Positions 1,400 through 22,783 of a stretch of 22,783 bases of DNA are shown in pieces. Numbering within the stretch: the first letter of the stretch is position 1; every line of letters starts with the position of its first letter. The DNA comes from a virus: positions 1 through 22,783 of the IMG/VR virus record IMGVR_UViG_3300025324_000271. One strand, given 5' to 3'. The notes beneath the pieces were generated by a model, which ran no database searches, was not told the DNA's origin, and saw only the letters and a list, made by a program, of their open reading frames with translations. A program made the position numbers and the translations under genes.

Positions 1400-1849
1400 A
1401 TGGCGAATCTGGGAAATTTCAACGCGAATGAAGTTCCACCCGCCGGAGATTTCACGCCAATCCCAGAGGGGAAATATGAGGCGATGATCGTCGAGAGCGA
1501 GACGGTGCAGAACTCATCTGGAAACGGGTCGCATCTCAAGCTCACGCTCGTCGTCACGCGCGGCGAGCACGAGGGTCGGAACCTCTGGCATCGGCTGAAT
1601 CTGGACAATCCATCCGAGAAAGCGGTCCAGATCGCCCGCGGCCAGCTCAGCGCCATCTGCCGGGCAGTAAACATCCTGACGCCGAAGGATTCGACGGAGC
1701 TGCACTCGTTGCCTCTCATGGTCAACGTCAAGCAGGAAAGTTATGAGGGTGGCGTATCGAACAGGATCACGTCGTTCTCGGCGTGCGAGGGGATGCCGAC
1801 GCCATCTCCGGCGATGCCCAAGCAACAGATCGCCCCCTGGAAGCGTTGA
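1400..1849 (+). CDS. DUF669 family protein, probable ssDNA-binding partner
   Basis: A 149-aa protein opening MANLGNFNANEVPP, with the family-typical 'G.Y.AMIVESE ... L.L...V..GE.EGR.LW..LNL ... A...L..IC.AV' pattern (about residues 21-100) that marks DUF669. This family is found beside Sak4/RecA-like or Erf genes in phages and is thought to be a beta-rich ssDNA-binding protein. The gene follows the ATPase by 9 bp, with a modest Shine-Dalgarno (AAAGGTG), so they are almost certainly co-translated. The C-terminal tail (about residues 125-149, rich in Pro, Met, Ala and Lys) looks unstructured, as in many SSB-type tails. Biochemical activity is inferred from the neighbourhood. Confidence 0.75.
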   Translation: MANLGNFNANEVPPAGDFTPIPEGKYEAMIVESETVQNSSGNGSHLKLTLVVTRGEHEGRNLWHRLNLDNPSEKAVQIARGQLSAICRAVNILTPKDSTELHSLPLMVNVKQESYEGGVSNRITSFSACEGMPTPSPAMPKQQIAPWKR

Positions 1850-1863
1850 CCTCTCTCTCCATA

Positions 1864-1885
1864 CCGCGCCCCGCTTGGGGCGCGG
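1864..1885 (+). other. GC-rich 9-bp hairpin ahead of the helicase ribosome-binding site
   Basis: CCGCGCCCC (1864-1872) pairs perfectly with GGGGCGCGG (1877-1885) around a GCTT loop. It sits in the 49-nt gap after the DUF669 stop, 4-5 nt before the GGAGGG Shine-Dalgarno of the helicase gene. There is no U-tract, so it is a poor intrinsic terminator. An RNA-stability or translation-control element is more likely. Confidence 0.5.
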
Positions 1886-1898
1886 ATTTGGAGGGAGC

Positions 1899-4800: not shown

Positions 4801-5093
4801 GACGCGACGAGAAAGATGAAAAGCATGTCTGCCCGCTTCAGCTTGAAGTGATCCGCCGATGTGTTCGGCTCTGGACGAATCGCGGGGAACTTGTGCTTTC
4901 TCCGTTCGCAGGGATCGGGAGCGAAGGGCATGAATCCGTCAAGTCGGGGCGCCGGTTTCTTGGAATTGAACTCAAGACGAGCTATTTCAACGCAGCGGTG
5001 AAGAATCTGGAAAGGGCGGAACATGAAGCAAACTCAGGAGACCTTTTCAGATCGAAAAAGAGTTTTCATCTATTGCCGGAACCGCATCCATGA
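1899..5093 (+). CDS. SNF2-like helicase fused to N4/N6 DNA methyltransferase, interrupted by an intein
   Basis: A 1064-aa precursor: N-extein 1-132, intein 133-445, C-extein 446-1064. The helicase part has Walker A CDTGLGKS (51-58), Walker B LIVDE|CS split by the intein, motif III GCSATP (472-477) and motif VI QCIRRSWRFGQ (695-705) with arginine fingers, so it is an SF2/SNF2-type translocase. From about 774 a beta-order DNA methyltransferase follows: catalytic motif IV SPPF (799-802), then the SAM-binding motif I SPFAGIG (1001-1007). SPP[FWY] is typical of N4-cytosine enzymes, but N6-adenine cannot be excluded. After splicing the protein would be 751 aa. The start at 1899 is chosen for its GGAGGG Shine-Dalgarno; the frame is open to 1743, but that would overlap DUF669. 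It probably couples DNA translocation with modification of phage DNA, for example as anti-restriction. Splicing must restore the Walker B box for ATPase activity. Confidence 0.88.
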   Translation: MDYEEFLRSKKFSVENVGRDVSDSEINPKLFDFQKAVVRWGVKRGRAIFGCDTGLGKSIMAMEWARLVCGQSLILAPLAVALQFIEEGKKHGYEVAYARTPEEMPKSGLTVTNYERFQNFESVKLDALIVDECFPPNTLIDTPSGGVYISNIRRGDKILNAYGADTVEGLVKRRIKRAVKINVDGKQIISNETHPFFTRQGWKRAISLTAGDQVMATSSAMRMVQDAVRGQICSDGESSFLQSLLFSELRHESSSRESSSSFQGSTRQDREEGVYLAENDNEREEASGEAFDGKAHADARRSRESIGHLETYRAQAANSGRQRSWADDAREDSTSFIEWELEMELCSSNSHEKRDGLPDSLQAGPITSGRDGLYRSGWWVSSQSESAGCEEDEFPSFSRVESVEVLEQGHSELEKFRDEDGLVYFYDIKASRHPSFSVKGLLVHNCSLLASFDGKLRTYIIERSQEIPYRLGCSATPAPNDFVELGNHAQYLGIMTWQEMAATFFVHDGMSGGDSRNNAWRLKGHAEDAFWKWIVSWMVFIKNPSDIGFEDEKFRLPKLSIQDRIVKVDVKREGELFFTGLHGIGDRTEVRRATLGDRVKEAIRLVKGDPDAQWIVWCGLNAEADAVADALGNRCENLSGDDEPEEKARRIIDFTKGRYNVLVTKAKIAGMGLNLQNCSRQVFLGLGDSYRDYYQCIRRSWRFGQKKPVDVYIVLSDAESEIALNVRRKEKDAETMGKEMVKRMSDLEKQEILGAIKEETIYTRRTVKSPIDAWIMEQGDCVEVLSEKPSDFIDFSVYSPPFSSLYVYTNSHRDMGNCRGEEEFFKHFDFFLRELLRVTKPGRLTACHVSQLAAMASRDGYIGLKDFRGRCIDAFNRAGWIHHGEIAIQKNPQAQAIRTKAVGLLFATLKRDSSKLRPALADFILVFRKPGENAVPVKSDVTNEEWIKFAHPIWTDIRETETLSAIEGRDEKDEKHVCPLQLEVIRRCVRLWTNRGELVLSPFAGIGSEGHESVKSGRRFLGIELKTSYFNAAVKNLERAEHEANSGDLFRSKKSFHLLPEPHP
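2295..3233 (+). mobile_element. Intein 1, in Walker B of the helicase-methyltransferase
   Basis: A 313-residue in-frame insertion between VDE and CSLLASF. Block A is CFPPNTLIDTPSGG with nucleophile Cys1. Block B is SNETHPFFTRQGW (T61, H62, T66 of the intein). Blocks F/G are YDIKASRHPSFSVKGLLVHN (294-313), ending in His-Asn before +1 Cys. All canonical class 1 splicing residues are present. Removing it rejoins a normal LIVDECSLL Walker B. Residues of about 91-283 lack any LAGLIDADG or HNH motif and are strikingly rich in Ser, Glu, Asp, Arg, Gln and Gly. That is what one expects from a linker read in the non-selected frame of another gene, and the overlapping nuclease ORF (2428-3225) explains it. 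Base composition also shifts: the block A coding region is AT-richer than the helicase around it, which suggests recent acquisition. Confidence 0.93.
2428..3225 (+). CDS. Vsr/DUF559-like homing nuclease overlapping intein 1 in another frame
   Basis: A 265-aa ORF on the same strand as the intein but in a shifted frame, wholly inside it. A zinc finger C45-x2-C48-x16-C65-x3-C69 (CEWC ... FCSRSC) is followed by a basic helical region. The C-terminal nuclease has E154 in MPEKILL, D188 in YKLDLSL, E199 and D201 in CIEVDGGSHH, then D212, and the closing strand GWRVLRFWNKDI. This order matches the EDxHD/Vsr-DUF559 fold used by some homing endonucleases. The GTG start at 2428 has AGAGGAGA (2413-2420) about 7 nt upstream, so independent translation is credible. 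In this frame the protein looks folded and conserved, while the intein frame looks like disordered linker over the same bases. It probably cuts the intein-less helicase allele to drive homing; the target is not known. Confidence 0.85.
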   Translation: MPSKSTWMESKSSRMKRIHSSRGRGGSGQFRSLPGIKSWQRPRPCEWCKMQFVVRYVQMAKARFCSRSCSASYGMNLPHVKAAVHSKEVHARIGKKVSIWLRTTMKGKRHLEKLSMVKPMLMPGVREKVSATLKRIGHKPRIRGGNGHGPTMPEKILLHSLSGNWKWNYVVPTRMKRETGYPTHYKLDLSLPGEMVCIEVDGGSHHSRKAQDVKKTNFLRSRGWRVLRFWNKDILSWKNSGMRMGSSISTTLKRHGIHPSQSKGS

Positions 5094-10684: not shown

Positions 10685-12058
10685 ATGAGTCAGCCTTTCG
10701 TGCAGCAATCCTACCAGCAGGACATCTACTCCCAGGCCCTCGCGTCGATCTGGAATCTTTACGACAAGCTGCCGGATATTTCGTACGCCAATTCCAAGGA
10801 CATTGACATATGGGAAATCGTTCAGAGAGATCCGAAGATCAGGCAGGGGATTCAACAGAGGTTGAATCGCGTGGCGGGCCCGACGTGGGGGATCTTCGCC
10901 GGTGATGATAAGCGCGAGGATTCCAAGCGGCTTGCATCCGTGGTGGAAGATTCGTTTCATCGCATCCCTCATTTCAGGGACATTCGTAGGCGTTTAGCGT
11001 CCAGTGTATTTCGAGGGATGTCTGTCGAATTCATGCAAGGGAAACGTCGCGAAATTCAGCTTGGAAGTTACCCGCCGCTCAATTGGTGGTGCATCACGAA
11101 GATGACGAATGTTGATCCCCGTAGATTCGTCATCCGTCCGGTGAAGGAGCAGCGTATCGATGGAACTACCCGAGTGCGTGGGGAACTCAACATCTCAGTT
11201 CTTCTCGACGAAAACTTGAAGCATGTCAAAACGAGCCTTTACCGTTACGTCAAAGTCGAACATCCCGAATGGTTTGTCCGCGTGATCTACGAAGACGAGG
11301 AATCGAGACTCGGTCAAGGACGCGGATTGCTTGAGTCGATCTATTTTTATCACTGGGTGAAACAGATCGTGATCCGGGAAGGCCTTCAGGGCCTTGAGCG
11401 ATGGAGTCAGGGTATCATTGTGGGAAAGATGGACGAGAACAGGGAAGCATCAACATCCAAAACGAATGAGGATTTGCGCGATGAAATGGTTGACGTTCTT
11501 AACAAAATGCGTTCGCGCCATGTGGTCGTGGTTGGGAAGGAAGATGAAGTCGAAGTCTTGACAGGTGGAGGCGAAGGTCATCAAATCGTGACGAGCTTCC
11601 TCAATTACGTGGACAATTCTCTCATGGCGCTCTGCACCGGAGCAATCCTTCCATCCGGTGGAGCTCAGGAGTCCGGCAGCCTGGCTCGCGCGGAAGTGGA
11701 ACAGGACACGCAGGAAAGCATCGTACAGTATGATCGCGACAAGATCGACGAGGATTTGACCACGGACATGATCGGTCTTTTCTTGCGCGTCAATCAACCC
11801 CAACTGGCCGCCACAGGATTGCTGGCCGCGGCGATGGAAACCCCTCCGAAGTTCAAAACCGTGCAGGAAAAAATGGAAGATCCGGATAAAGCGGTGGATC
11901 GGGTTGTCAAACTGCACAATGCGGGGATTCCGCTTTCGGAAGAGGAAGTCTATCAGAAGATCGGATTCTCTCCGATCAAGCCAGGCGAGCGGACGCTTGC
12001 CAGCATCGCGGCTCCAAAGTTGCCTCCAATGATTCCGAATGCTCCTTTCGGGCGATGA
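10685..12058 (+). CDS. Portal protein, DUF935 (Mu gp29-like)
   Basis: A 457-aa protein with the DUF935 layout: YANSKDIDIWEIVQRDPKIRQGIQQRLNR early (about 35-63), a central GRGLLESIYFYHWVKQIVIREGLQGLERWSQG segment (about 213-244), and GAILPSGGAQESGSLARAEVEQD near 320-342. These proteins form the dodecameric ring at the phage vertex for DNA entry. A GGGGGAA Shine-Dalgarno precedes ATG 10685. The pairing with a Mu F-like head-morphogenesis protein is typical, but here the two are separated by 9 kb of glycan genes. The portal stop (TGA) overlaps the ATG of the first gene of that cluster by 4 nt. Confidence 0.9.
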   Translation: MSQPFVQQSYQQDIYSQALASIWNLYDKLPDISYANSKDIDIWEIVQRDPKIRQGIQQRLNRVAGPTWGIFAGDDKREDSKRLASVVEDSFHRIPHFRDIRRRLASSVFRGMSVEFMQGKRREIQLGSYPPLNWWCITKMTNVDPRRFVIRPVKEQRIDGTTRVRGELNISVLLDENLKHVKTSLYRYVKVEHPEWFVRVIYEDEESRLGQGRGLLESIYFYHWVKQIVIREGLQGLERWSQGIIVGKMDENREASTSKTNEDLRDEMVDVLNKMRSRHVVVVGKEDEVEVLTGGGEGHQIVTSFLNYVDNSLMALCTGAILPSGGAQESGSLARAEVEQDTQESIVQYDRDKIDEDLTTDMIGLFLRVNQPQLAATGLLAAAMETPPKFKTVQEKMEDPDKAVDRVVKLHNAGIPLSEEEVYQKIGFSPIKPGERTLASIAAPKLPPMIPNAPFGR

Positions 12059-12687
12059 AATCCATCGAAACCATCCTCAAGGATGGTCAGTGGAAAGGTC
12101 ATAGCTGTTACGTCGTGGGATCGGGGCCGAGTCTTAAAGGTTTCGATTTTGCACGTCTGAACGGCGAGTTTTCCATCGGATGCAACATGGAGTTTCTATG
12201 GAATCCCTCGATTGCGCTTTGCCAAGATGTTCGATTCTTCAGACGATACAAGGATGATCCTCAATATCTCGCGTGCGAATCCATCAAAGCGTATTTCAAG
12301 GGCCATCCGCATCGCGAGGACATCGAAGCGTCAGATCGAATTTACGAAATCAGATCCGCTCATTTCAATTGGGGTAGAATGCTTTCTCAAGGATTGGTCT
12401 ATGGAGCGAACGTCGGGCTTGCGGCCATCAATCTTGCCGATATTCTTGGAGCTTCTCCTATTTACCTTCTCGGATTCGATTGCAAACAAGGACCGTCGAA
12501 CGAATCGCATCATCATGACGCCTATCCGGAACATTGGAGATTGTCGCAACCCGAAGCCGTCGCGTTCAAATACAATCGCAACATCGAGGAATTCAGGAAA
12601 TGGTCGAGTCATGTGAAGGGATACGTCGTCAACGCAACTCCGGAGAGTGCGATTGATTGTTTCGATAAAGGAGTTTTGAGTTTATGA
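12055..12687 (+). CDS. DUF115/CstII-like glycosyltransferase-fold protein
   Basis: A 210-aa protein that opens with a nucleotide-sugar-binding loop, VVGSGPSLKGFDFARLNG (20-37), and has ANVGLAAINLADILGASPIYLLGFD (about 119-143). Both segments recall DUF115/MptE and GT42 sialyltransferase folds (GxGPSL ... LGFD). A catalytic His for that fold could lie in the SNESHHHDAY segment (149-158), though I cannot assign it. It would transfer a sugar, possibly a nonulosonate, from a nucleotide donor. It is the first of the cluster and is coupled to the portal by an ATGA overlap. No transmembrane segment or signal peptide is visible. The acceptor is unknown. Confidence 0.6.
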   Translation: MKSIETILKDGQWKGHSCYVVGSGPSLKGFDFARLNGEFSIGCNMEFLWNPSIALCQDVRFFRRYKDDPQYLACESIKAYFKGHPHREDIEASDRIYEIRSAHFNWGRMLSQGLVYGANVGLAAINLADILGASPIYLLGFDCKQGPSNESHHHDAYPEHWRLSQPEAVAFKYNRNIEEFRKWSSHVKGYVVNATPESAIDCFDKGVLSL

Positions 12688-13055
12688 GCGACGAGCAATG
12701 GCATTGGATCTTCGGAAGGATCGAAACGGTTGGGGATTGCATCTTCCAGGTGCCGGCATCATTCTTCGCGAGCTTTCCAAGCGTTCTGGCGATCAGAAAA
12801 TTGACCCTTCTCGTGGCGACAAATCAAGGGCTTGCTCAAACGAAAGCTCAAGTGTATCAAGCGGGTATCGTTTCAGACGATGAAACGCTGTCTTTCGATC
12901 CTCATAGGCTCCTTTTATGGGCTGAAATCAATTCGAAAGAAGTGTTGAAGAAAATCGAAAACTTGTGGAAGTCGAAAGGTCAAGTGATCTTTGGGAATTC
13001 ACAACAGGCGGAGGACATGGCCAAGGGAATGAGAATCGCGAGGGAAGGGGAATGA
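12684..13055 (+). CDS. Unknown 123-aa protein in the glycan cluster
   Basis: I do not recognise this protein. It opens MSDEQWHWIFGRIETVGDCIFQVPASFF and ends in a lysine-rich helical tail (EVLKKIENLWKSKGQVIFG). The middle is a mix of short strands and helices without catalytic motifs. It is joined to its neighbours by 4-nt ATGA overlaps on both sides (12684 and 13052), so it is a real part of the operon. A role in glycan modification is inferred from location only. Confidence 0.6.
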   Translation: MSDEQWHWIFGRIETVGDCIFQVPASFFASFPSVLAIRKLTLLVATNQGLAQTKAQVYQAGIVSDDETLSFDPHRLLLWAEINSKEVLKKIENLWKSKGQVIFGNSQQAEDMAKGMRIAREGE

Positions 13056-13630
13056 AGCCTGTTTACGTCAGCTTCTACACGCCGGATTACGAGGATTGCG
13101 CGATTGATCTCATGATGTCTCTTGAAACGTTCGGGCTTTCAAGCGACGTGCAAGCTTTCAAGGATCTCGGGACGTGGCTCAAGAACTGCGCCGCCAAACC
13201 TAAATACATCTGGCAGATGATGTCGAAACATGAAGGACACCCTATCGTATGGATAGACGCCGACGCCGTAGTGAGGAGAAGGCCTGAGCTTTTCGATTCC
13301 ATGGAAGCCGATTTAGGCGTGGTGCGCTATGAATGGCCAGCTCCGAAACGTGTTGAGATTCTTAGCGGAACTGTATACGTCGCGAACAACATCAAAGCTC
13401 ATCGGCTTGTCGATGCGTGGATCGAGGAATGCGCCGACAAGCCGGATATCTGGGATCAGAAGTGCCTTGAAAATGCGATGGAGCGCATCGAGGAAAAGGT
13501 CAAGGTAACTTATCTTCCGATCAGCTACGCATTCATTTCGGACACGCATCGTAAAAAATTTCCAGGAGTCGAGCCTGTGATCGAGCATTTTCAGCGTTCA
13601 CGCAGGACGAGATCCAAGAGAATCGTATGA
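13052..13630 (+). CDS. GT-A-fold glycosyltransferase
   Basis: A 192-aa protein opening MKPVYVSFYTPDYEDCA, with PIVWIDADAVVRRRPELF containing a DxD motif (D69-A-D71), the metal and nucleotide-sugar site of GT-A enzymes. The later VANNIKAHRLVDAWIEECADKPDIWDQKCLENAM region resembles the acceptor-side helices of nucleotide-diphospho-sugar transferases. The start at 13052 is chosen for AGGGAAGGGG just upstream and the ATGA overlap. The longer frame from 12965 would run back over the previous gene. Donor and acceptor are unknown. Confidence 0.7.
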   Translation: MKPVYVSFYTPDYEDCAIDLMMSLETFGLSSDVQAFKDLGTWLKNCAAKPKYIWQMMSKHEGHPIVWIDADAVVRRRPELFDSMEADLGVVRYEWPAPKRVEILSGTVYVANNIKAHRLVDAWIEECADKPDIWDQKCLENAMERIEEKVKVTYLPISYAFISDTHRKKFPGVEPVIEHFQRSRRTRSKRIV

Positions 13631-14562
13631 GCCGAATTCTGATCACGGGCGGTGCTGGATTTCTAGGTTCGTCTTTGACGGAATTGCTCAAGACTATGAA
13701 TCATGAAATTCATTCTCTCTCTTCAAAAGACGGAGATTTAACGCTTTTTTCAGCAGCTGATTTACTTATCGGTATAGATAAACCTGACGTTGTCTTTCAC
13801 TTGGCTGCTCGCGTCGGAGGAATCGGGGCGAATCGAGCTCACGGAGCTAAATTCTGGCACGACAATCTATTGATGGGAATGAATGTCCTTGAAGCGTGTC
13901 GCATCCATGAGGTTTCGAAATTGATTCTTGTCGGTACGACATGCAGTTATCCTAGAATTCCAAAGACAATTCCTTTTATCGAGGAGGAAATCTTCGACGG
14001 CTATCCTGAAGAGACGAACGCGCCTTACGGAATCGCAAAACGCGCGTTGATTGCGGGCGCCCAAGCTTATGCGCGAGATTACGGAATGGACATCCGAGTT
14101 GCAATTCCTACAAATCTTTACGGTCCGCGGGATCATTTTGACCTTCAAAGTTCTCATGTGATTCCCGCCATGATGCGAAAGATGGATGAAGCGAAAAAGT
14201 CGGGCGAACCTGTCAAGCTATGGGGAAACGGATTGGCGACCAGGGATTTTCTCTACGTAGACGATTGCGTCAAAGGGCTTGTTTCGCTCATGGATTTCAA
14301 AAGAAACTTGGAAGGGATCGTGAATCTTGGTTCTGGCGTTGAAATCACCGTTGCGGACCTCGCCAAAAGAATAGCTGAAACGGTCGGATACGACGGATCG
14401 GTCATTTGGGATTGTTCGATGCCGAACGGACAACCGCGCAGGGTGCTTTCGACGAAGAGAGCGGAAGAATTGCTTTCATGGCGCGCATCGACACCGTTTG
14501 AATTGGGTCTTGCGAAAACTTATGCTTTCCATCTGGGTGGCGTTTCCAAGTTGCAATCCTGA
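13627..14562 (+). CDS. fcl: GDP-L-fucose synthase-like epimerase/reductase
   Basis: A 311-aa short-chain dehydrogenase/reductase. The NAD(P)-binding loop is GGAGFLG (8-14). The GDP-fucose synthase hallmarks follow: FHLAARVGGIGAN (57-69), GTTCSYP (103-109), and the catalytic YGIAK (Y134, K138). LYGPRDHF and the FLYVDDCVKGL segment complete the family pattern. The enzyme would convert GDP-4-keto-6-deoxy-mannose to GDP-L-fucose or a similar 6-deoxyhexose. The usual SSC before the catalytic Tyr is TTC here, a conservative change. No GDP-mannose dehydratase is visible, so the substrate would have to come from the host. Symbol given by family resemblance. Confidence 0.8.
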   Translation: MSRILITGGAGFLGSSLTELLKTMNHEIHSLSSKDGDLTLFSAADLLIGIDKPDVVFHLAARVGGIGANRAHGAKFWHDNLLMGMNVLEACRIHEVSKLILVGTTCSYPRIPKTIPFIEEEIFDGYPEETNAPYGIAKRALIAGAQAYARDYGMDIRVAIPTNLYGPRDHFDLQSSHVIPAMMRKMDEAKKSGEPVKLWGNGLATRDFLYVDDCVKGLVSLMDFKRNLEGIVNLGSGVEITVADLAKRIAETVGYDGSVIWDCSMPNGQPRRVLSTKRAEELLSWRASTPFELGLAKTYAFHLGGVSKLQS

Positions 14563-15178
14563 GCGTGCCTCTCAAGTTCGGGATGCGTGGCATATTCGAG
14601 GCTATTCTGTCGCCATTGCGTCCGAGAACGAGGATTGCTTGCGCTATGTGGAGCACGGGATTCTCGAAAAAGAATATCAAGGCTACTGGAAAACGTCGAA
14701 TCGGCTGTGTAAGGAACTTGTTGAACGTGGAGCGGATATCGTTGTGGTCGGGGCGGATGATATTTATTCAGACTTGAGATTATCGGCTCAGGATATAGGC
14801 GAGCAATTCACGAAGCGATTCCCTGATTTCTTCGGCGTGATGCAGCCGACGGGGGATGACCTTCAAGGAACGGATAAGATTTGCGGTTCACCTTGGATCG
14901 GAAAGGAATTCATCAATCAAGCCTACGGAGGGAAAGGTCCGTATCTAGACGAATTCTTTCAATTCTATGGCGACGAACTGATGTTCGAGGAGACAAAGCT
15001 CGCGTGCCTTTTGTGGCAGAATCCCGAAATCGTACAGAGACATGAGCATTGGACTCGCAAAGGTGGCCCGAATAAACTCGGGTATCAGGAACGAAATTCG
15101 AATCGTTGGTGGAATCACGATAGGGAGATTTTCATGAAACTGAAGGAATCCGGATTCAGGAAAATCGTAGATGGGTAA
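14522..15178 (+). CDS. Putative glycosyltransferase (GT-A-like)
   Basis: A 218-aa protein opening MLSIWVAFPSCNPERASQVRD. It has ADIVVVGADDIYSDL (71-85), whose GADD is the likely metal/donor site. Later acidic residues in the DELMFEETKLACLL segment could complete the active site. The pattern suits a small GT-A transferase, although weaker than its neighbours. The frame is open upstream to a TTG at 14498. ATG 14522 is preferred because a TTG start has no ribosome-binding site. The gene overlaps the epimerase by 41 nt, another sign of tight operon packing. Confidence 0.6.
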   Translation: MLSIWVAFPSCNPERASQVRDAWHIRGYSVAIASENEDCLRYVEHGILEKEYQGYWKTSNRLCKELVERGADIVVVGADDIYSDLRLSAQDIGEQFTKRFPDFFGVMQPTGDDLQGTDKICGSPWIGKEFINQAYGGKGPYLDEFFQFYGDELMFEETKLACLLWQNPEIVQRHEHWTRKGGPNKLGYQERNSNRWWNHDREIFMKLKESGFRKIVDG

Positions 15179-15920
15179 AACCATCTCGGTCTATTGGACT
15201 CTCTCCCCGAATTTCGGAGACGCGCTTGGTCCGTGGCTTGTCGAGCGCATGACCGGAAAGAAAGTAACGTATTGCGATCCTTCATGGGGGATCGAGCATT
15301 ACGTCGTAAGCGGTTCGATCTTGAATCATGCAAAGAAATCTTCCATCGTCTGGGGAGCTGGCGTGGCTGGAATGTGCGATGGAGTGGATTTCGATGTCAA
15401 AATCCTGTCCGTTCGTGGGCCTCTCTCCCGCGCGAAGGCTTTAGCGTCTAATGCCATATGTCCTTCCGTGTACGGAGATCCGGCGATTTTGCTCCCCGAA
15501 TATTTGAAACCGTCTTCTCGTGCTCACGCTCTCGGGATCGTGCCGCATTACGTGGACCAATATCGAACGTGGGGAAGATACGAAGGCAAAGCGCACATCA
15601 TCGACGTGCTTTCTCCGGTCGAAAAGTTCGTTCAGGAAGTCACGTCATGCGAAAGGATCATTTCGACTTCCCTGCATGGCTTGATCGTCGCGCACGCTTA
15701 CGGGATTCCAGCATTGTGGATGAAATTTTCAGATAGCATCTTGGGGGACGGGACCAAATATCGGGATTACTTTATGTCGGTGGGGATGGATACGTCCGTC
15801 CCTGTCGATGCGAGAGATAACGATCTGGACATTTTGAAAGTAAGCGGATTTGAGTTTCCCGCTTCCGGCGTTATTGAGATCATGTCTCGCAAGCTTCGTA
15901 AAGCGTGTCCCTTCCTATGA
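15171..15920 (+). CDS. Polysaccharide pyruvyl transferase (WcaK/AmsJ-like)
   Basis: A 249-aa protein matching the polysaccharide pyruvyl transferase family (PF04230). It has SPNFGDALGPWLVERMTGK at the N-terminus (12-30), SIVWGAGVAGM and VRGPLSRAKALASN centrally, VYGDPAILLPEY, and the conserved ISTSLHGLIVAHAYGIP segment with SLHG near 166-169. Such enzymes add a pyruvate ketal to a sugar using phosphoenolpyruvate and give a glycan negative charge. It overlaps the previous gene by 8 nt and the next by 4 nt. It is the strongest indication that the cluster builds or decorates a surface-type polysaccharide. Confidence 0.85.
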   Translation: MGKTISVYWTLSPNFGDALGPWLVERMTGKKVTYCDPSWGIEHYVVSGSILNHAKKSSIVWGAGVAGMCDGVDFDVKILSVRGPLSRAKALASNAICPSVYGDPAILLPEYLKPSSRAHALGIVPHYVDQYRTWGRYEGKAHIIDVLSPVEKFVQEVTSCERIISTSLHGLIVAHAYGIPALWMKFSDSILGDGTKYRDYFMSVGMDTSVPVDARDNDLDILKVSGFEFPASGVIEIMSRKLRKACPFL

Positions 15921-16675
15921 GATACGTCAGCTATTCGTTTTTCAGGCATGAGGCGTCGGCCTACGAGAGCGAGCGGGCGGGCGCCGCGCGCGGGAGATTC
16001 TTCGTCAACTATTTGCGGTCCCTTCCTCGAGCTCACTGGTCGGTCTATTCGGATTTGAAACTTGTCATTCATCACGACGAGCGCGTGAAAGAGTATCCGT
16101 ACTTCAAGGCGATTCAGGCGATGGAGCGTGAAGGATTGCTTGAGCTTGTTCCCATGGGGGAAGCCAAGACGCTTACGGGTTCGATGCTCTGGCGCATGAA
16201 AGCGATCTTCAGGAAAGATGCCGAAATCGTTTTGTGCAGGGATCTTGATTCCCTGTCCACGCCGAGAGAGCGTATCGCCGTTGAGCGATGGATCAACTCT
16301 GGAAAAGCGATTCACGTGATCCATGACAGCGTTTCCCATAGCGGCATCATGGGAGGCACTCTCGGCATTCGATGCTCGAAGTTCAAGGATCTTTTCCCAA
16401 CGTGGGAGCATATGCAGGGAAGCATCGAGAATACTTCCGTCGATTGGAACAAGCTGGGAAGCGATCAACGCTGGCTTGCCTGGAACGTGGAACCCGCGTT
16501 TTCAAGTTCCGAAATTCTCGTCAACACGAAAGAGATGATGGGGCCTAAAGAAGATCCGAGGGATTTGTTGTGTAATGGGGTCGGACTTGCTTTTCATGTG
16601 GAGCCCGTCGTGAAATATTATGATGAGCATGAACCCAACGAGAAGATCCTGAAATGCGAAAGAGGGTTGTCGTAA
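15917..16675 (+). CDS. Putative glycosyltransferase with RDLDS motif
   Basis: A 252-aa protein opening MRYVSYSFFRHEASAYESERA. It has AEIVLCRDLDSLSTPRE, with the R108-D-L-D111-S motif that is the metal site of a GT-A-type transferase. DQRWLAWNV further on is common in phage and host glycosyltransferases of the same kind. The start at 15917 follows the ATGA overlap; GTG 15905 would add four residues. Donor sugar is not predictable. Downstream, the ATG of the next gene lies 22 nt inside its end. Confidence 0.65.
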   Translation: MRYVSYSFFRHEASAYESERAGAARGRFFVNYLRSLPRAHWSVYSDLKLVIHHDERVKEYPYFKAIQAMEREGLLELVPMGEAKTLTGSMLWRMKAIFRKDAEIVLCRDLDSLSTPRERIAVERWINSGKAIHVIHDSVSHSGIMGGTLGIRCSKFKDLFPTWEHMQGSIENTSVDWNKLGSDQRWLAWNVEPAFSSSEILVNTKEMMGPKEDPRDLLCNGVGLAFHVEPVVKYYDEHEPNEKILKCERGLS

Positions 16676-17367
16676 GCTGTGGAGTCGGTGATCGTTACGA
16701 ACCGTATCTGGCTAGGTTGAAAGATACGGTTAAACGATTTTCCTCCATCCCGATATTCTCATGGTCTGAGGATTGGCCCATCGGAAGCCCGACTCATCGC
16801 GCGATGCACTACGCCTTCAAGATTCACGCCGTGAAATACGCGAAGGAAAGCGGATACGATTCGGTCTTGTGGCTCGATGCGGCTTCCTACGCGACGGGCC
16901 CGATTGAGCCCGTCTTTGAGAGGATCGAACGGGATGGATATTTTTTGAGTACAGGCGTGGACATACTTGGACAATGGATTTCGGATCGTGCGCTTTCTCA
17001 CTACGGATTCACCAGGGATCAAGCGATGCACTGGAAATTGCCTGCGGGCTGCATCGTGGGACTTGATTTCCAGCACGTTCTCGGACGCGCTTTCTTTTGG
17101 GAATGGTTTGAGGCGTCCAAAACTGGGCTTTTCTGGAGTTTCCATAGCGAGCACGCACCGGATCGGATGACTTCGCTTTATTCTGACGGACCGACCAAGG
17201 AAGCGATTTCATCCGATCCGCGTTGTTTGGGGCATCGTTCGGACGAAGCGTGTTTCGGCCTCATGATGAAATGTTTCGGCATGAAGCCGACACCGATAGG
17301 GGATTTATTCGAGGGCGGATTGGCGAAAACGGTTAACGGATGCATTCGTTCAGGGTACGATTTGTGA
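16654..17367 (+). CDS. Putative glycosyltransferase with WLDAAS site
   Basis: A 237-aa protein. MRKRVVVSCGVGDRYEPYLARL opens a nucleotide-sugar-transferase-like first strand and helix, and DSVLWLDAASYA (69-80) replaces the typical DxD with D75-A-A. PAGCIVGLDFQHVLGRAFFWEWFEA and HRSDEACFGLMM resemble acceptor-side motifs of similar enzymes. It is likely a GT-A-fold transferase, possibly with altered metal dependence. It overlaps the preceding gene by 22 nt and the next by 4 nt (GTGA). Confidence 0.55.
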   Translation: MRKRVVVSCGVGDRYEPYLARLKDTVKRFSSIPIFSWSEDWPIGSPTHRAMHYAFKIHAVKYAKESGYDSVLWLDAASYATGPIEPVFERIERDGYFLSTGVDILGQWISDRALSHYGFTRDQAMHWKLPAGCIVGLDFQHVLGRAFFWEWFEASKTGLFWSFHSEHAPDRMTSLYSDGPTKEAISSDPRCLGHRSDEACFGLMMKCFGMKPTPIGDLFEGGLAKTVNGCIRSGYDL

Positions 17368-17969
17368 TCGAAATCGTAGATCAGCATTCGGTAAGGACGG
17401 ATTTGATCTCTTCCGGCGATTGGGTGCTCGATGCCGGCGCCAGAGGATTCAGGTTCGCTTCATGGTTTGCGGACAAGAATGTCAATGTGCTTGCACTCGA
17501 TCCCGATCCGGACGTGAAAGCTCCCATGATCGGATTCGTCACGTTCAGGCCTTACGCGCTTTCTAAAGAAACGTCATTCCAGATGCTCGCAAGATACAAA
17601 GATGCGGAGGCGAATCATCTTGTTTGCGTGAAAGTTCCCGGAAGCTCGGTAAAAGAGAACGTCAAAGTCCATGCGTGGTCCATCGGCGATCTTATGGAAA
17701 CGCTTTTCGTCGAAAGTTTCGCGTGCGTCAAACTCAACATCGAGGGAGCGGAATACGAGATTCTAGAAAATTGGCCTGGACCGATTGCGAAGCAGATCGC
17801 CGTTTCGTTCCATGACCATACGGGTGCGAATCCTGAAGGCGAAGCAAGATACGGACGCATCCTGAATCGTCTTGGTCAGTGGTACGATGTGGCACGCCAC
17901 GTAAAAGACTCGCGCTATTGTGCTGGAGAGAACTACTGGGATTCTCTTTTCGTCCTGAAGGGGCTTTGA
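17364..17969 (+). CDS. FkbM-family SAM methyltransferase
   Basis: A 201-aa methyltransferase. The SAM-binding motif WVLDAGARGFRFASWFAD lies near the N-terminus (20-37), and CVKLNIEGAEYEILENW is the FkbM-type motif that follows. These enzymes usually O-methylate sugars in surface glycans. The GTG at 17364 is preferred because it makes the 4-nt GTGA overlap typical of this cluster and has CAGGG 7-8 nt upstream. ATG 17340 would add eight residues and a 28-nt overlap, so the start is not certain. Confidence 0.75.
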   Translation: MIEIVDQHSVRTDLISSGDWVLDAGARGFRFASWFADKNVNVLALDPDPDVKAPMIGFVTFRPYALSKETSFQMLARYKDAEANHLVCVKVPGSSVKENVKVHAWSIGDLMETLFVESFACVKLNIEGAEYEILENWPGPIAKQIAVSFHDHTGANPEGEARYGRILNRLGQWYDVARHVKDSRYCAGENYWDSLFVLKGL

Positions 17970-17970
17970 G

Positions 17971-18837
17971 ATGCGTCGATGGGTGGCGATAGGATGCAGC
18001 ACGGTACATGATTACGCTGCTTTTCTGCCCTTGGCGGGGCTTCTTTGGCGCAACCGAATCGGATACGAACCGATCTTCTACTTGATCGGCGATAACAAGA
18101 TATGGGGGACAGGGCATCCTAAAGTAGTCTTCGACGCGCTTGGGAAGTTTTCTTTCCTGATGGGATTCGTCGAGCAAGAAAAAGGAATCGAGGATGCCAC
18201 GATGTCGCAGTCAATCAGGCTCTATGCGGCGGCGGCGCCTTATCTTGATTCAAACGATCTCCTTATTCCTTCCGATGCCGATTTGTTGCCGCTCAATCGT
18301 GAATTCTACTATCAGCATAACGTGGAACGTTATCCGATCGCCAGCTATTACGCAAACGGTTACGACGAAAGCATGACTCATCTTCCCTCTTGTCATGTAA
18401 GCGCGCACGTGGAAACGTGGAGAGAATTCATGAATCTGAATGGATCGTCGCCTAGAGAATCCATGCTCAAAGGATTCGAGGAAAGAAATCTCAAGGCGAA
18501 GATCAAGGCGAAAGAGGAGAATCCTCAGGCGAATTGGGGTCACGTTTGGTTCGAGGATGAATTCAATCTGAGTGCGCGCGTGAGGGCTTCTAAGTTTCAT
18601 CCCGATGGGCTTCAACTCATCAGGCGCGAAGGTCAGCCGCCTCGGGACAGGATTGATCGTTCATGTTGGCCGGCATCCTACAACGTGCTCAACTACTCGG
18701 ATTGTCATAGTCTCCGTCCGATGTGGAGCGATGAAAACTGGGCGAGGATTCGACCTATTTTCGAACAAACGATGCCGAGCATTCTTGATTGGGCGGATCA
18801 ATACAGATTGGATTTCAAGAAAGCGATGGGATTCTGA
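17971..18837 (+). CDS. Putative glycosyltransferase with SDADLL motif
   Basis: A 288-aa protein opening MRRWVAIGCSTVHDYAAFLP, with NDLLIPSDADLLPL (95-108) containing a D102-A-D104 DxD site. GHVWFEDEFNLSARV and the middle SCHVSAHVETWREFM segment suggest an acceptor-binding half. It is one of several divergent GT-A-like proteins in this block. It begins one base after the methyltransferase stop and ends one base before the next start. No signal peptide or membrane segment is visible, as for all genes of the block. Confidence 0.65.
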   Translation: MRRWVAIGCSTVHDYAAFLPLAGLLWRNRIGYEPIFYLIGDNKIWGTGHPKVVFDALGKFSFLMGFVEQEKGIEDATMSQSIRLYAAAAPYLDSNDLLIPSDADLLPLNREFYYQHNVERYPIASYYANGYDESMTHLPSCHVSAHVETWREFMNLNGSSPRESMLKGFEERNLKAKIKAKEENPQANWGHVWFEDEFNLSARVRASKFHPDGLQLIRREGQPPRDRIDRSCWPASYNVLNYSDCHSLRPMWSDENWARIRPIFEQTMPSILDWADQYRLDFKKAMGF

Positions 18838-18838
18838 A

Positions 18839-19360
18839 ATGGGCTTCGACATCTATGGGACGCATCTTCCGGCCCTTATGGCCGCTGTTGCATCTACAGA
18901 GGGCCCGATTTTGGAATGCGGAGCGGGAGATTATTCGACTCCGATTCTTCATGAGATTGCGAATCAGTCGGGTAGGTTTCTTGTCACACTCGAAACGGAT
19001 GCGAAATGGCTTTCAAAATTTCAGGATTTGAGCGGCGACCTTCATAAGATCATTCTTGTGAAGAATTGGACTGACGAAAGGATCATTGACAAGGAATGGA
19101 GCGTCGCGTTGATCGACCACGCACCAGGCGAGCGGAGAATAGAGGAGATCAGGAGGCTTGCCGATCTCGCTACGTTCATCGTCGTTCATGACACGGAAAC
19201 GGATTACGCCACGGGTGCGAATTACGGATATGAGCCCGTGTTCTCCAGATTCAAGTTCAGGACGGATTACCGGCGCTACCGACCTTATACGACTGTCGTC
19301 TCGAATTTCAGAAAGTTGGGATTGAATGACCGTCAGTGGAAGCCGGAGGATAACGGATGA
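18839..19360 (+). CDS. Small SAM-dependent methyltransferase-like protein
   Basis: A 173-aa protein with PILECGAGDYSTPIL (23-37), an ExGxGxxST loop typical of class I methyltransferases, and WSVALIDHAPGERRIEEIRRL further on that fits motif IV and a following helix. IVVHDTETDYA resembles the end of such domains. The start at ATG 18839 lies one base after the previous stop. A longer frame from 18605 would run back over that gene and is not used. Substrate is not known; a sugar O-methylation is likely from context. Confidence 0.65.
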   Translation: MGFDIYGTHLPALMAAVASTEGPILECGAGDYSTPILHEIANQSGRFLVTLETDAKWLSKFQDLSGDLHKIILVKNWTDERIIDKEWSVALIDHAPGERRIEEIRRLADLATFIVVHDTETDYATGANYGYEPVFSRFKFRTDYRRYRPYTTVVSNFRKLGLNDRQWKPEDNG

Positions 19361-20310
19361 GGATACTTGTCACGGGCGGCAGCGGCTTCATCGGTTCCCA
19401 TCTGGTTCACCGTCTTCTTTCGGATGGAGATGAAGTTTCCGTCATGACGCGATACAACGCAGTCGTAAAGAACGAACGCCTTGCGGATGTATGGGGAGAC
19501 ATTCAGGTTGTCGAAGCGGATCTGAGGAATCTGGAGTCTCTTTGTTCCGTGATGGCGGATGCGAAGCCGGAGGCGATTTTCCATCTTGCCGCCTATAATC
19601 ACGTGGGTCAGAGTTTCACGCACTATCAGGAATGTTTCGACGTGAACGCGAAAGGTACGGCGAATCTTCTTCACGCATCCAAATCCAGCCATCCCGTTTT
19701 CGTATACATGAGCACTTCGGAAGTTTACGGCTATCAGGAAGAGTGCCCGTTTCATGAACGGTTCGCTCCCGAGCCCATCTCTCCATATGCCATTACGAAG
19801 TATGCGGGAGAGCTTTATTGTCGCATGAAGCAATTGATGGAAACGGCGGATGTCAGGATCGTCCGATGCTTCAACACTTACGGACCTTGGCAATCCGAAA
19901 AAGCGATCATCCCGGACATCATCGGGAAATGCCTGAGAGGGGAAGAAATCAGATGCACCGAAGGGAAGCAGACGAGGGAATTCAACTTCGTGGACGATAT
20001 CGTTGATGGGCTCGTTCTTGCTTTGATGGCGAAACCGTTTGACGGCCCCGTCAACATCGGTTGCGGCGTTGAAACTCCGATCCGTTCTCTTGTCGAGAAA
20101 ATAGCCGAATTGACCGGTGCGGCGGATCAATTGAAAATCGGAGCTATTGGGTATCGACCTACCGAAATCTGGCGCATGGCTGCGGATGTTTCCCTTGCGA
20201 AGAATCTGTTCGACTACGCGCCGTCTGTTTCTCTCGATGAAGGTATGAAACGAACGGTTGAATGGTTCAGGGAGAGGCATGAGAATAGTCGGCTTGATGC
20301 TCGCGCGTAA
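19357..20310 (+). CDS. NAD-dependent sugar epimerase/dehydratase
   Basis: A 317-aa extended SDR enzyme. NAD-binding GGSGFIG is at 7-13 and FHLAAYNHVGQS at 75-86. STSEVYG (119-125) is followed by the catalytic YAITK (Y144, K148). RCFNTYGPWQ and REFNFVDDIVDGL complete the pattern. It belongs with nucleotide-sugar 4,6-dehydratases or 4-epimerases. The STSEVYG core is close to dTDP-glucose 4,6-dehydratases, while the usual TDE triad is absent, so 4-epimerase activity is equally possible. It is linked to the previous gene by an ATGA overlap and makes the second sugar-nucleotide enzyme of the block. Confidence 0.8.
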   Translation: MRILVTGGSGFIGSHLVHRLLSDGDEVSVMTRYNAVVKNERLADVWGDIQVVEADLRNLESLCSVMADAKPEAIFHLAAYNHVGQSFTHYQECFDVNAKGTANLLHASKSSHPVFVYMSTSEVYGYQEECPFHERFAPEPISPYAITKYAGELYCRMKQLMETADVRIVRCFNTYGPWQSEKAIIPDIIGKCLRGEEIRCTEGKQTREFNFVDDIVDGLVLALMAKPFDGPVNIGCGVETPIRSLVEKIAELTGAADQLKIGAIGYRPTEIWRMAADVSLAKNLFDYAPSVSLDEGMKRTVEWFRERHENSRLDARA

Positions 20311-21154
20311 CGAATCGTGGGTGATCGGCTGCTCCTTGAGAGCGGCTCTTCGCTGGTGCGATTCCGTTCTCGTTGCGCTTCATGCGTGCATCGACGAAAC
20401 GCAAAGGATCGTGTCGCAAATTTCGAAAGAGTCGAACAGAAGGGTAGCTTTCTATAGCATCAAGGATTCGGGCCAATGGGATGAAATGCATGTCCGTCAG
20501 CGGCAGCTCGAGATAGGCCGGCGCGTGATGGGGGGAACCCATTTTGCAATCGTCGATGCGGACGAGATCCTGAGCCATAACTTGCTGGATCACGTTCGCC
20601 CATGGTTTGAGCAACTCGAAACGCGGCAGCTGATTGACCTTCCGATGATCCCGGCATGGAGATCGCTGGATCAATACCGTGATGATTTTTCGGTATGGTC
20701 CCGCGGGTGGATTACCGCAGGATTCAAGGATGCACCGGATCTATGCTGGAAACCCAAGGACCAGAATTACCATCATCATAATCGGCCTCCTCAGGGAACG
20801 TTACCGAATCGTTTGAAACCGATCCATCATGGGGAAGGTGGAGTGTTCCATCTTCAATTCGCGGCGTGGGAGCGATTGAAAGCGAAACATCGACATTACA
20901 AGATGATGGAGCGTCTTCGCTGGCCGGATCGTGAAACCGTCGAGCAAGTGGATCGGAAATATTCACAAGCTCTTGATGAAACGGACATCAAGACTTCCCT
21001 TTGCCCGAGGAAATGGTGGGGAGACTACGAAAAGAATCTCGTTCGATTGAGTCATAAATCGTGGTATGAAGATGAATGCGTGAAATTGTGGAAGGAGAAC
21101 GGGCCCGAACCGTTCAAAGGCCTGAATCTATGGGGGTTCCCTGATGCCCATTAA
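20279..21154 (+). CDS. Family 2-like glycosyltransferase
   Basis: A 291-aa protein opening MRIVGLMLARNESWVIGCSLRAAL, the first strand and Asn-Glu-Ser region of GT2 enzymes ('vrNE'). FAIVDADEILSHNLL (89-103) has D93-A-D95 as the metal site. GEGGVFHLQFAAWERLKAKHRHYKMM, with its conserved HLQF.SW-like segment, is typical of this type. The start at ATG 20279 has GGGAGAGG just upstream; the alternative at 20258 is inside the epimerase. It overlaps the epimerase by 32 nt and the head gene by 11 nt, tying the cluster to the structural genes. Confidence 0.8.
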   Translation: MRIVGLMLARNESWVIGCSLRAALRWCDSVLVALHACIDETQRIVSQISKESNRRVAFYSIKDSGQWDEMHVRQRQLEIGRRVMGGTHFAIVDADEILSHNLLDHVRPWFEQLETRQLIDLPMIPAWRSLDQYRDDFSVWSRGWITAGFKDAPDLCWKPKDQNYHHHNRPPQGTLPNRLKPIHHGEGGVFHLQFAAWERLKAKHRHYKMMERLRWPDRETVEQVDRKYSQALDETDIKTSLCPRKWWGDYEKNLVRLSHKSWYEDECVKLWKENGPEPFKGLNLWGFPDAH

Positions 21155-22783
21155 GCCGTCTATCGACGTTCAGCTTGCGCTTTTGGGAAAGTCTCCCTTT
21201 CTCTTCGCTCGAAAACTTGCCGAGCTTGCCGGATCGATTCTGCGAAGGGATTCGGAGGAAGAGCGCCAGAAGACGGAATCCTTGGCGCAACTTATCGGCG
21301 AGACGATGATGCTTGCCGATCTCGTCGGGCGCCGGAGGGCTTACGTCGAATTCGACGCCATGGCGACGCGCGAGCAACCTTCAAGATTCTCAGCTATCAA
21401 GGATCTTGAATTCGCAAGGATCAGTTTCGGAGCCACTCCGATATTCCCGCGCACGACGTTTACGGAAGCCATAGACGAGCTTTTGGATCTCGAGCCAAGG
21501 CTTGCAAAGACTGCTGAAGAGATACGTCAAATCTATTCCACCCGTTCAGGCTTCGCCGTTCTGAAGTTGCCGGATTTTCTAGCTCAAGACGCGAGATTCA
21601 ACGTCACTCGCAGGATTCAGCAGGCGATTTCGTTTCTCATCCAGGAGGGAAAGCCGATTCCGAAAGCTGCCGAAGAATTGCAAGAGATGATGGATTGGAC
21701 TCAAGCTTATGCCCAGACGGTGTATCGGACGAATCTGGCGACGGCTTATACGGCGGGAAGATTGAGACAGGCGTTCGATCCCGACATCCGAGAAGTGATC
21801 GGAGCATTCGAATACGATGCCGTCATGGATGCGGACACGCGGGGCAATCATGCGGCCTTGCACGGCCTTACCGCTGCCCAGGACGATCCGCTTTGGGATT
21901 TGTATGCGCCCCCAAACGGATTTAATTCTTATCTTCCTGGAAATTTGATGGAAGGAAGGATAGAGACGGCTTCAAAAGCCCTCTACTCTGGTCCCGCTAT
22001 AACTTTTAAGACGAGAAAAGGAAGTAGGATTTCCGTAACCGTCAATCACCCCGTATTGACTCCGCAAGGATTTGTCAAAGCGGCATTTCTTAGAAAATTC
22101 GATTATCTTGTTTGCTACAAACCTAGCTTTGAATCTTTCGTATCGAGTTCCAAGAATGGGGATTTTCCCTCTATATTTGAATCTAGGCGGGCAGTACACG
22201 ATCAATACGCTCCATCCTTCATCGAGAATATTTTTAATGCGTCGTGGAGACAAAGAGCACGATCTTCCATTGGAGAGCGTTTTACGAGGTCTTTCCCTTT
22301 GGATTTCCACGGCGACGCGACTTTTTACAAGAGCGATGTCCACATTGTGGGAGCCGATGGCCTCTTGCCAGATGACTTTGATTCCCCTATTCCTCAAGAT
22401 TCCGCACAAGGCACGTTCGTGGTAGGATCTGATACCTCTTTTTCTATTTCTCATTCCGATTGCATACTTTCTCGAGCTGCATTTGTGCGCTTCGGAGTAG
22501 GATCGAATCTTAATATTTCTCGAGGAGAGTCTATCGGCCAAACATACTCTGGAGATTCCGAATTCTTTGGAAAGCTCGTAGAGGGATTTCCCGAAGACAT
22601 ACTGATTGACCAGATAGTCGACATCGAAATGTTTTCTTATGATGGTCATGTTTACGACTTGCAATCTCCTCTTGGATATATTGTAGCAAATGGGATTATT
22701 TCAAGCAACTGCCGATGCGATCTTCGCTTGGTGGATCGTTTCGAGCTCCAAGATCGAGGATTGATCCGATTCGGAAGAGTCAC
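21144..22783 (+). CDS. Head-morphogenesis protein (Mu gpF/SPP1 gp7-like), interrupted by an intein, 3' end outside the window
   Basis: Open from ATG 21144 to the window edge (546 codons). The N-extein is residues 1-261, the intein 262-522, and the C-extein starts at Cys523. The N-extein is helical, with VYRTNLATAYTAGRLRQAF followed by HAALHGLT ... DPLWDLYAPPNGFN. Joined to CRCDLRLVD this gives the 'PPNGFNCRCD' end motif of Mu gpF/SPP1 gp7-like minor head proteins, which associate with the portal or scaffold during prohead assembly. The first gene after the glycan block, it overlaps the last transferase by 11 nt. No strong Shine-Dalgarno is evident before ATG 21144, consistent with coupled translation. 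Splicing is needed to restore the Cys-rich motif. Confidence 0.85.
   Translation, partial: MPIKPSIDVQLALLGKSPFLFARKLAELAGSILRRDSEEERQKTESLAQLIGETMMLADLVGRRRAYVEFDAMATREQPSRFSAIKDLEFARISFGATPIFPRTTFTEAIDELLDLEPRLAKTAEEIRQIYSTRSGFAVLKLPDFLAQDARFNVTRRIQQAISFLIQEGKPIPKAAEELQEMMDWTQAYAQTVYRTNLATAYTAGRLRQAFDPDIREVIGAFEYDAVMDADTRGNHAALHGLTAAQDDPLWDLYAPPNGFNSYLPGNLMEGRIETASKALYSGPAITFKTRKGSRISVTVNHPVLTPQGFVKAAFLRKFDYLVCYKPSFESFVSSSKNGDFPSIFESRRAVHDQYAPSFIENIFNASWRQRARSSIGERFTRSFPLDFHGDATFYKSDVHIVGADGLLPDDFDSPIPQDSAQGTFVVGSDTSFSISHSDCILSRAAFVRFGVGSNLNISRGESIGQTYSGDSEFFGKLVEGFPEDILIDQIVDIEMFSYDGHVYDLQSPLGYIVANGIISSNCRCDLRLVDRFELQDRGLIRFGRV
21927..22709 (+). mobile_element. Intein 2, in the head-morphogenesis protein
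   Basis: A 261-residue in-frame insertion between GFN and CRCD. It begins SYLPGNLMEGRIE (Ser1 as nucleophile) and has KALYSGPAITFKT. Block B is VTVNHPVLTPQGF (N40, H41, T45). The C-terminal blocks are GHVYDLQSPLGYIVANG and IISSN, ending in Ser-Asn before +1 Cys. The penultimate residue is Ser instead of the usual His, and residue 1 is Ser instead of Cys. Such variants occur in natural inteins but may splice slowly or depend on conditions. There is no in-frame endonuclease motif. The middle part (about 60-230) covers the antisense nuclease ORF. The rest of the host gene after the intein is visible for 24 codons only. Confidence 0.88.
21972..22649 (-). CDS. Antisense Vsr/DUF559-like nuclease with HTH, wholly inside intein 2
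   Basis: A leftward ORF of 225 aa from ATG 22649 (the frame is open to TTG 22664, but AGAGGAGA sits directly against that codon, too close to serve it). The N-terminus carries a helix-turn-helix of the recombinase/homing-nuclease kind: YVFGKSLYELSKEFGISRVC, then IKIRSYSEAH. After a basic linker, YHERAL gives a catalytic Glu (residue 78), IGSHNVDIALV gives Asp (104), and SRVAVEIQ gives Glu (115). DEGWSVLIVYCPPRF is the closing strand. This is the pattern of short PD-(D/E)XK-fold nucleases that also occur as free-standing homing endonucleases. It covers all but about 60 nt at each end of the intein. It probably promotes spread of the intein, but expression from the antisense strand is not shown. 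Confidence 0.82.
   Translation of the reverse strand: MTIIRKHFDVDYLVNQYVFGKSLYELSKEFGISRVCLADRLSSRNIKIRSYSEAHKCSSRKYAIGMRNRKRGIRSYHERALCGILRNRGIKVIWQEAIGSHNVDIALVKSRVAVEIQRERPRKTLSNGRSCSLSPRRIKNILDEGWSVLIVYCPPRFKYRGKIPILGTRYERFKARFVANKIIEFSKKCRFDKSLRSQYGVIDGYGNPTSFSRLKSYSGTRVEGF

Follow-up and report, generated by a model that had tools for sequence, protein, structure and literature searches.

Homing nucleases are known in several settings that resemble the one described here. In canonical inteins the nuclease, of LAGLIDADG or HNH type, is encoded in frame and spliced out with the intein. Nucleases related to I-Bth0305I (EDxHD) and those of the Vsr-DUF559 type are either intron-encoded or free-standing, and we know of none that overlaps an intein in antisense. 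Antisense homing endonuclease genes have been found in nuclear group I introns, I-DsqI being one example (PMC9548176). The ShiLan domain, published in 2025, is an HNH endonuclease hidden in an alternative frame of a phage methylase (PMC11855218). In ambigrammatic narnavirus sequences the reverse complement, too, is open along almost its entire length, and the resulting second ORF has no described function (PMC6884476).

The window, i.e. the whole 22,783-nt stretch of viral DNA analyzed (IMG/VR record IMGVR_UViG_3300025324_000271), ends in a head-protein gene interrupted by an intein, and the opposite strand of this intein encodes a predicted nuclease (Table 1). Splicing blocks A, B, F and G, a conserved insertion site and, as we infer, nuclease-driven mobility are shared with canonical inteins, but here the nuclease is a separate gene on the opposite strand. 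As in the group I introns, the nuclease is antisense to the host gene and is predicted to be expressed from the opposite strand; their host, however, is an RNA intron with no second protein made from the same bases, whereas here both strands code in register. ShiLan also places a homing nuclease in another frame of an insert that is kept open in the host frame. It lies on the same strand, belongs to the HNH type and has neither a detected splicing domain nor a recognizable ribosome-binding site, whereas the window element is antisense, is a true intein and has promoter and Shine-Dalgarno (SD) signals. With the EDxHD and Vsr-DUF559 enzymes it shares the catalytic fold and the Glu...Asp...Glu pattern. 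The window and the narnaviruses have such a second ORF in common; in the window its product can be identified, and conservation extends to both proteins. A search of the literature turned up no intein described as carrying an antisense nuclease. A preprint on the 'non-canonical architecture' of actinophage inteins, cited in PMC11855218, lay outside the reach of this search; overlapping nucleases may already be reported there for a subset of these inteins, so that priority is uncertain. The locus is very probably a mobile intein with its homing endonuclease encoded by a distinct gene on the opposite strand, in exact codon register, and expressed from its own antisense promoter.

Table 1. Features of the intein-containing head gene and of the predicted antisense gene (window coordinates).
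Feature	Position	Strand	Basis
Mu F / SPP1 gp7-like minor capsid (head morphogenesis) ORF, intein host	21144..22783	+	Pfam Phage_Mu_F 6.7e-16; TIGR01641 1.4e-13
Intein, 261 aa, S1 to N261	21927..22709 (783 bp)	+	Pfam Intein_splicing, PDB intein profiles, Foldseek
Antisense homing-nuclease gene (predicted), 225 aa + stop: N-terminal HTH, EDxHD/Vsr-like catalytic domain, C-terminal part opposite blocks A-B	21972..22649	-	
Dual motif: sense DFHGD vs antisense VAVEI, predicted catalytic Glu115 at 22305-22307	22302..22316	both	Glu codon in 115/118
Predicted catalytic Asp104, opposite sense Val of DVHI	22338..22340	-	invariant in A7; D in 113/118 distinct relatives
Predicted catalytic Glu78, opposite sense Phe	22416..22418	-	nearly invariant column in A1 and A7
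Antisense start ATG, complement of block F His codon CAT	22647..22649	-	His CAT enriched in relatives
Possible Shine-Dalgarno AGGAG, 16 nt upstream of ATG (long spacing)	22666..22670	-	
Candidate extended -10 (TGC-TACAAT) of antisense promoter	22680..22685	-	window score 10.7
Weak candidate -35 TTGCTT, 17-nt spacer, opposite splice junction	22703..22708	-	

The host ORF continues past the contig end. Its exteins read ...PPNGFN upstream and CRC... downstream, placing the insertion at PPNGFN/CRC. The intein matched Pfam Intein_splicing (PF14890) with E = 7e-9 and 36.1 bits against a cut-off of 35.8, its sense profile matched PDB inteins at 2.5e-9 and 1.2e-11, and the top Foldseek matches of the sense-strand model were inteins. 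A Hint splicing domain with blocks A, B, F and G was identified, as in class 1-like inteins, with block B His41 and block F GHVY (His241). Terminal residues of that class (N-terminal Cys or Ser, C-terminal Asn, +1 Cys, Ser or Thr) are represented by Ser1, Asn261 and +1 Cys, and homologues without the insert exist in the phages LPB1, Ent2 and SS3e. Residue 1 is Ser in the window copy and Cys in relatives; the penultimate residue of the window copy is Ser in place of His, a known variation of inteins. Splicing of this intein is predicted, with Ser at these two positions counting against it. The AlphaFold model of the sense protein gave pLDDT mostly above 90 for the splicing blocks and disorder for residues 145-208. 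The sense motif DFHGD...[VI]V (22302-22346 and its counterparts in relatives) lies in a fairly ordered part, with predicted pLDDT of about 70-85, and sense constraint was seen there; the literature searched for a role of this motif in inteins gave no known function.

On the opposite strand the register frame is free of stops across 21975-22700, with the ATG at 22649-22647 and the TGA at 21974-21972, and the two frames are in exact codon register. The sequence-only reading had claimed a leftward ORF with HTH and nuclease parts and with catalytic Glu, Asp and Glu inside the 783-bp intein, facing a sense strand that keeps an open frame and the intein blocks. The former was borne out with E78, D104 and E115, the latter by Pfam, PDB profiles and Foldseek. 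It had also aligned DFHGD with VAVEI and DVHI with NVDI; every one of these pairings was exact when checked base by base, sense DVHI (22335-22346) facing antisense NVDI with D104 at 22338-22340.

Comparison of the antisense ORF with phage records by tblastn gave matches in Pseudomonas, Cronobacter, Gordonia, Rhodococcus, Escherichia and Acinetobacter phages, most of them opposite a head-protein gene. No relatives came up in a pattern search based solely on the window nuclease; an alignment of all 14 sequences proved too divergent for searching, and subgroup alignments were used instead. The family profile matched PDB entries 3hrl (3.5e-7) and 3r3p, which is I-Bth0305I (1.5e-5), as well as HTH chains, and this was reproduced with other sequences. 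Members of the family matched the Pfam models MTES_1575 (7 of 14), DUF559, Vsr and, in several cases, HTH models including HTH_58; the window nuclease alone reached E = 0.062 at best, so that its family assignment rests on the alignment. AlphaFold modelled the antisense protein with pLDDT 84.5, and the best Foldseek matches of the model were 1vsr and 3r3p, with probability 1.00 and a modest E of about 0.01. Profile similarity, the conserved Glu-Asp-Glu triad and the fold all agree with an EDxHD / Vsr-DUF559-like nuclease. The HTH-nuclease proposed earlier is thus real, and its identity can be refined to the DUF559/MTES_1575/Vsr/I-Bth0305I fold as the best match.

The arrangement recurs widely. 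All 13 inteins studied in detail (the window and 12 phages) have a long open antisense ORF in register; these ORFs contain the Glu, the YN[LIVM]D-type and VAVE[IV]-type motifs and, in most cases, the HTH, and none of the 13 is annotated. Scans of IMG/VR gave 126 distinct relatives of the nuclease, each of them (126/126) facing a stop-free register frame, while the remaining four frames at these loci usually contained several to many stops. As some of the search patterns (YGVIRG and its like) mirror intein block B, the survey was redone with a pattern for the nuclease catalytic core only. An open register frame was again present opposite all 89 loci found; intein blocks were detected by HMM in 87 of the 89 and both N- and C-terminal blocks in 81. 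At one virus, recorded twice as L214 and L217, no intein blocks were detected by HMM opposite the nuclease relative, which is possibly a free-standing or relic form.

Relatives were also picked by sense similarity only, and the antisense nuclease was then recovered in Klebsiella RCIP0061 (E = 4.9e-52) and Idiomarinaceae 1N2-2 (E = 1.1e-60). Both nucleases are intact; a conserved sense strand with a broken antisense frame was the outcome that the sequence-only reading had named as adverse to it. That reading had also called the arrangement very unusual, which no longer holds, as it recurs as a class in more than 100 diverse phages. Host ORFs were assigned to Phage_Mu_F by Pfam in 32 of the 48 sampled. 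Carriers include cultured Salmonella, Escherichia, Pseudomonas, Vibrio and Gordonia phages, and 12 loci came from bacterial genome assemblies, among them Micromonospora, Gordonia, Atlantibacter and Streptomyces. At L065 (3001-3627) an antisense-nuclease intein lies in a uracil-DNA-glycosylase/DNA polymerase-like gene, not in a capsid gene, and adjoins another intein with an HNH-like motif. In L102 the portal region has an in-frame LAGLIDADG-like intein, and farther downstream the same long sense frame contains an antisense-nuclease intein. The intein of Rhodococcus phage REQ3 (L008, 2770-3438) is shorter and its antisense nuclease is devoid of the HTH, possibly a stage of decay or a minimal form; given this shortening, not every copy need be active.

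Antisense frames in codon register with a conserved protein do show correlated similarity, and the antisense 'GVIRG' motif is truly a shadow of block B. It could therefore be argued that only the intein is selected and that the antisense ORF and its similarities are by-products of the register. Codon register pairs the sense wobble base with the first base of the antisense codon, and the antisense wobble base with the first base of the sense codon. Substitution rates at sense codon positions 1, 2 and 3 (p1/p2/p3) were 0.336/0.131/0.223 in the overlap, for 22 independent pairs, against 0.219/0.165/0.456 in the exteins of the same genes, and p1 exceeded p3 within the overlap in all 22 pairs. Substitutions thus fall on the antisense wobble base inside the inteins and on the sense wobble base in the exteins. 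Sense residues and extein codon usage predict about 689 antisense stops in 138 inteins; stops were observed in three genes. The Glu of the VAVE motif is GAA or GAG in 115 of 118 distinct relatives, which makes the sense Phe codon TTC and the sense Leu codon CTC; the sense residue interchanges freely between the two, whereas the antisense Glu is kept.

Recoding gave the same answer. The window antisense protein scored 135.7 bits against a profile of relatives that excludes the window, whereas 50 sense-preserving recodings scored 68.9 bits or less and had a mean of 7.3 antisense stops. Matches of the antisense frame to solved nucleases and HTH proteins also speak against a by-product, as does the free-standing homologue of Acinetobacter phage IME285, an ordinary gene with 12 stops in its opposite register frame. 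The recoding control, the reversed wobble pattern and the fixed antisense Glu led us to reject this explanation, which we regard as scarcely credible. The sequence comparisons show purifying selection on the protein of the antisense frame, to a degree that the sense frame does not account for.

The converse proposal is that the nuclease is the sole selected protein in the middle of the intein, the sense linker being an unconstrained open loop and DFHGD a shadow of VAVE. By segment, p1/p3 was 0.44 in block A, 0.80 in block B, 1.39-1.86 in the middle, 0.24 in block F and 0.46 from F to G, and the middle is conserved less in sense than in antisense. These ratios indicate that the sequence is set by the intein at the ends and by the nuclease in between, and the predicted disorder of residues 145-208 fits such a loop. 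Against extending it further, blocks A, F and G are sense-dominated, and when the antisense protein was kept in the reverse recoding control the real intein scored 181.3 bits against 84.0 or less for recoded versions, which also gained sense stops. In eight inteins tested by recoding, each protein lost its score when only the opposite protein was kept. At the motif itself, antisense Ile is always ATC (35/35) at the first position, opposite the last Asp of DFHGD, and always ATA (12/12) at the third, opposite sense Tyr, in statistics that were anchored on the antisense motif and not conditioned on the sense motif. This split of Ile codons suggests that the sense residue at DFHGD also appears to be constrained; a constraint at the nucleotide level is a possible alternative. 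The fairly ordered prediction for the DFHGD region likewise does not suit a free loop. We consider this proposal rather unlikely for the intein as a whole, while for the disordered linker it holds true. The earlier statement that active-site motifs dictate intein sequence accordingly stands for the middle and fails at the ends (blocks A, F and G), where the intein dictates, and DFHGD is apparently constrained on both strands. Overall, profile, structure, codon-position, codon-choice and comparative evidence supports the view that the same DNA encodes a splicing element and, in antisense, its probable mobility enzyme.

Signals for expression of the antisense gene were sought opposite blocks F and G. 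Among 81 distinct relatives, 65 use CAT for the block F His (24.0 +- 4.1 expected), and 54 have an SD match of at least 4 bases at the right distance (17.2 +- 3.7 expected); the usual SD position, nearer to the ATG, is weak in the window. A -10 test with extein codon usage was replaced, its strand control being confounded by AT-rich, near-palindromic sequence. In its place a bipartite sigma-70 score was compared with recodings that use region-specific codon usage: upstream of the antisense gene it gave z = 9.9 family-wide over synonymous recodings, against z = -1.6 for the sense strand of the same DNA. One locus (L052) has a near-consensus arrangement, TTGACA-17-TATAAT...GGAGG...ATG. A strict consensus promoter scan of the window found none. 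Across the family, synonymous codon choices in blocks F-G accommodate the putative start, SD and sigma-70-like promoter of the antisense gene; the window signals are weaker.

These signals bear on whether the antisense gene could be a nuclease that has decayed or lost its activity and persists only through the spread of the intein with its host phage. The HTH-less REQ3 copy and the antisense-frame stops of three relatives would fit such decay, but purifying selection, near-invariant catalytic residues across very divergent phages and the conserved promoter, SD and start would not, and we judge it improbable.

Evidence for mobility came from closely related phages. In Salmonella phages Ent2 and SS3e the gene is 1044 bp long, compared with 1860 bp in UPWr_S5, and the difference is exactly an 816-bp intein. 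UPWr_S5 and Ent2 are 95-100% identical nearly throughout more than 1.7 kb; the exception is a tract of about 120 bp immediately 5' of the insertion (63-68%), which is what co-conversion during homing would be expected to leave. The UPWr_S5-type intein is carried by 70 phage records, and 377 records match the upstream extein. The window site has an empty counterpart, PPNGYN/CRC, in Pseudomonas phage LPB1. In Escherichia phages Snoke and KMB36 (L004, L009) the same head gene is occupied by antisense-nuclease inteins that differ between the two phages and sit at two different sites, the site used in one phage being empty in the other. Taken together, the empty alleles and the co-conversion-like tract indicate probable mobility.

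Vsr-like folds occur also in repair and defence proteins, and the protein has an HTH domain; it could on these grounds be a regulator or a phage defence nuclease and not a homing enzyme. This seems very improbable, since the nuclease almost always occurs together with an intein at conserved sites, there are empty alleles and a tract suggestive of co-conversion, and the best fold matches include the homing enzyme I-Bth0305I.

With a homing enzyme, the element would work as follows. The sense strand specifies an intein splicing domain whose parts are connected by a long linker, predicted to be disordered in part, and the antisense strand opposite this linker specifies an HTH DNA-binding domain and an EDxHD/Vsr-like nuclease, in a gene starting opposite block F. 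Host RNA polymerase would transcribe the nuclease from the internal promoter, the nuclease would cut intein-free copies at the conserved MuF site N/C[RK]C, and repair would copy the intein in along with some flanking DNA. The intein would then splice out, leaving the head protein functional. With a promoter of its own, the nuclease would not depend on late capsid transcription, and the two would presumably be separated in time.

Chances seem to us about even that these elements constitute a broad class of ambigrammatic inteins, in which a splicing protein and its mobility nuclease are encoded on opposite strands in register, the active-site motif is doubly constrained, the full cassette of promoter, SD and start lies in the C-terminal splicing blocks, and nuclease expression is independent of, and opposed by, late capsid transcription. 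Long antisense overlaps with a recognizable fold and function for both proteins are very rare, and here one recurs in more than 100 divergent phages. The arrangement illustrates how a mobile element can fit a second gene into itself without added length, the joint constraint on two proteins and a promoter becomes directly measurable, and the system offers a natural model for the design of entangled genes. Annotation pipelines, by implication, miss one nuclease in each such genome.

The window contains a second intein, in a helicase-DNA methylase fusion ORF (1743-5093, + strand). Nested in it is an ORF (2428-3225, +) for a zinc-finger-like and DUF559 homing-type nuclease (Pfam 2.4e-11), which lies on the same strand in the +1 frame. 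The same offset recurs in Pseudomonas MR14 and in two Vibrio phages (K391 and 159E43); in an IMG/VR sample of relatives of this nuclease, N-terminal intein blocks were present in 46 of 53, always in the same alternative frame. Inteins of this type are a putative sister class of overlapping-nuclease inteins. Finally, the portal gene (10685-12058) and the minor capsid gene are close together in the related phages examined, unlike in the window, where about 9 kb of genes (12055-21154), several of them epimerase- or glycosyltransferase-like by eye, lie between the two.
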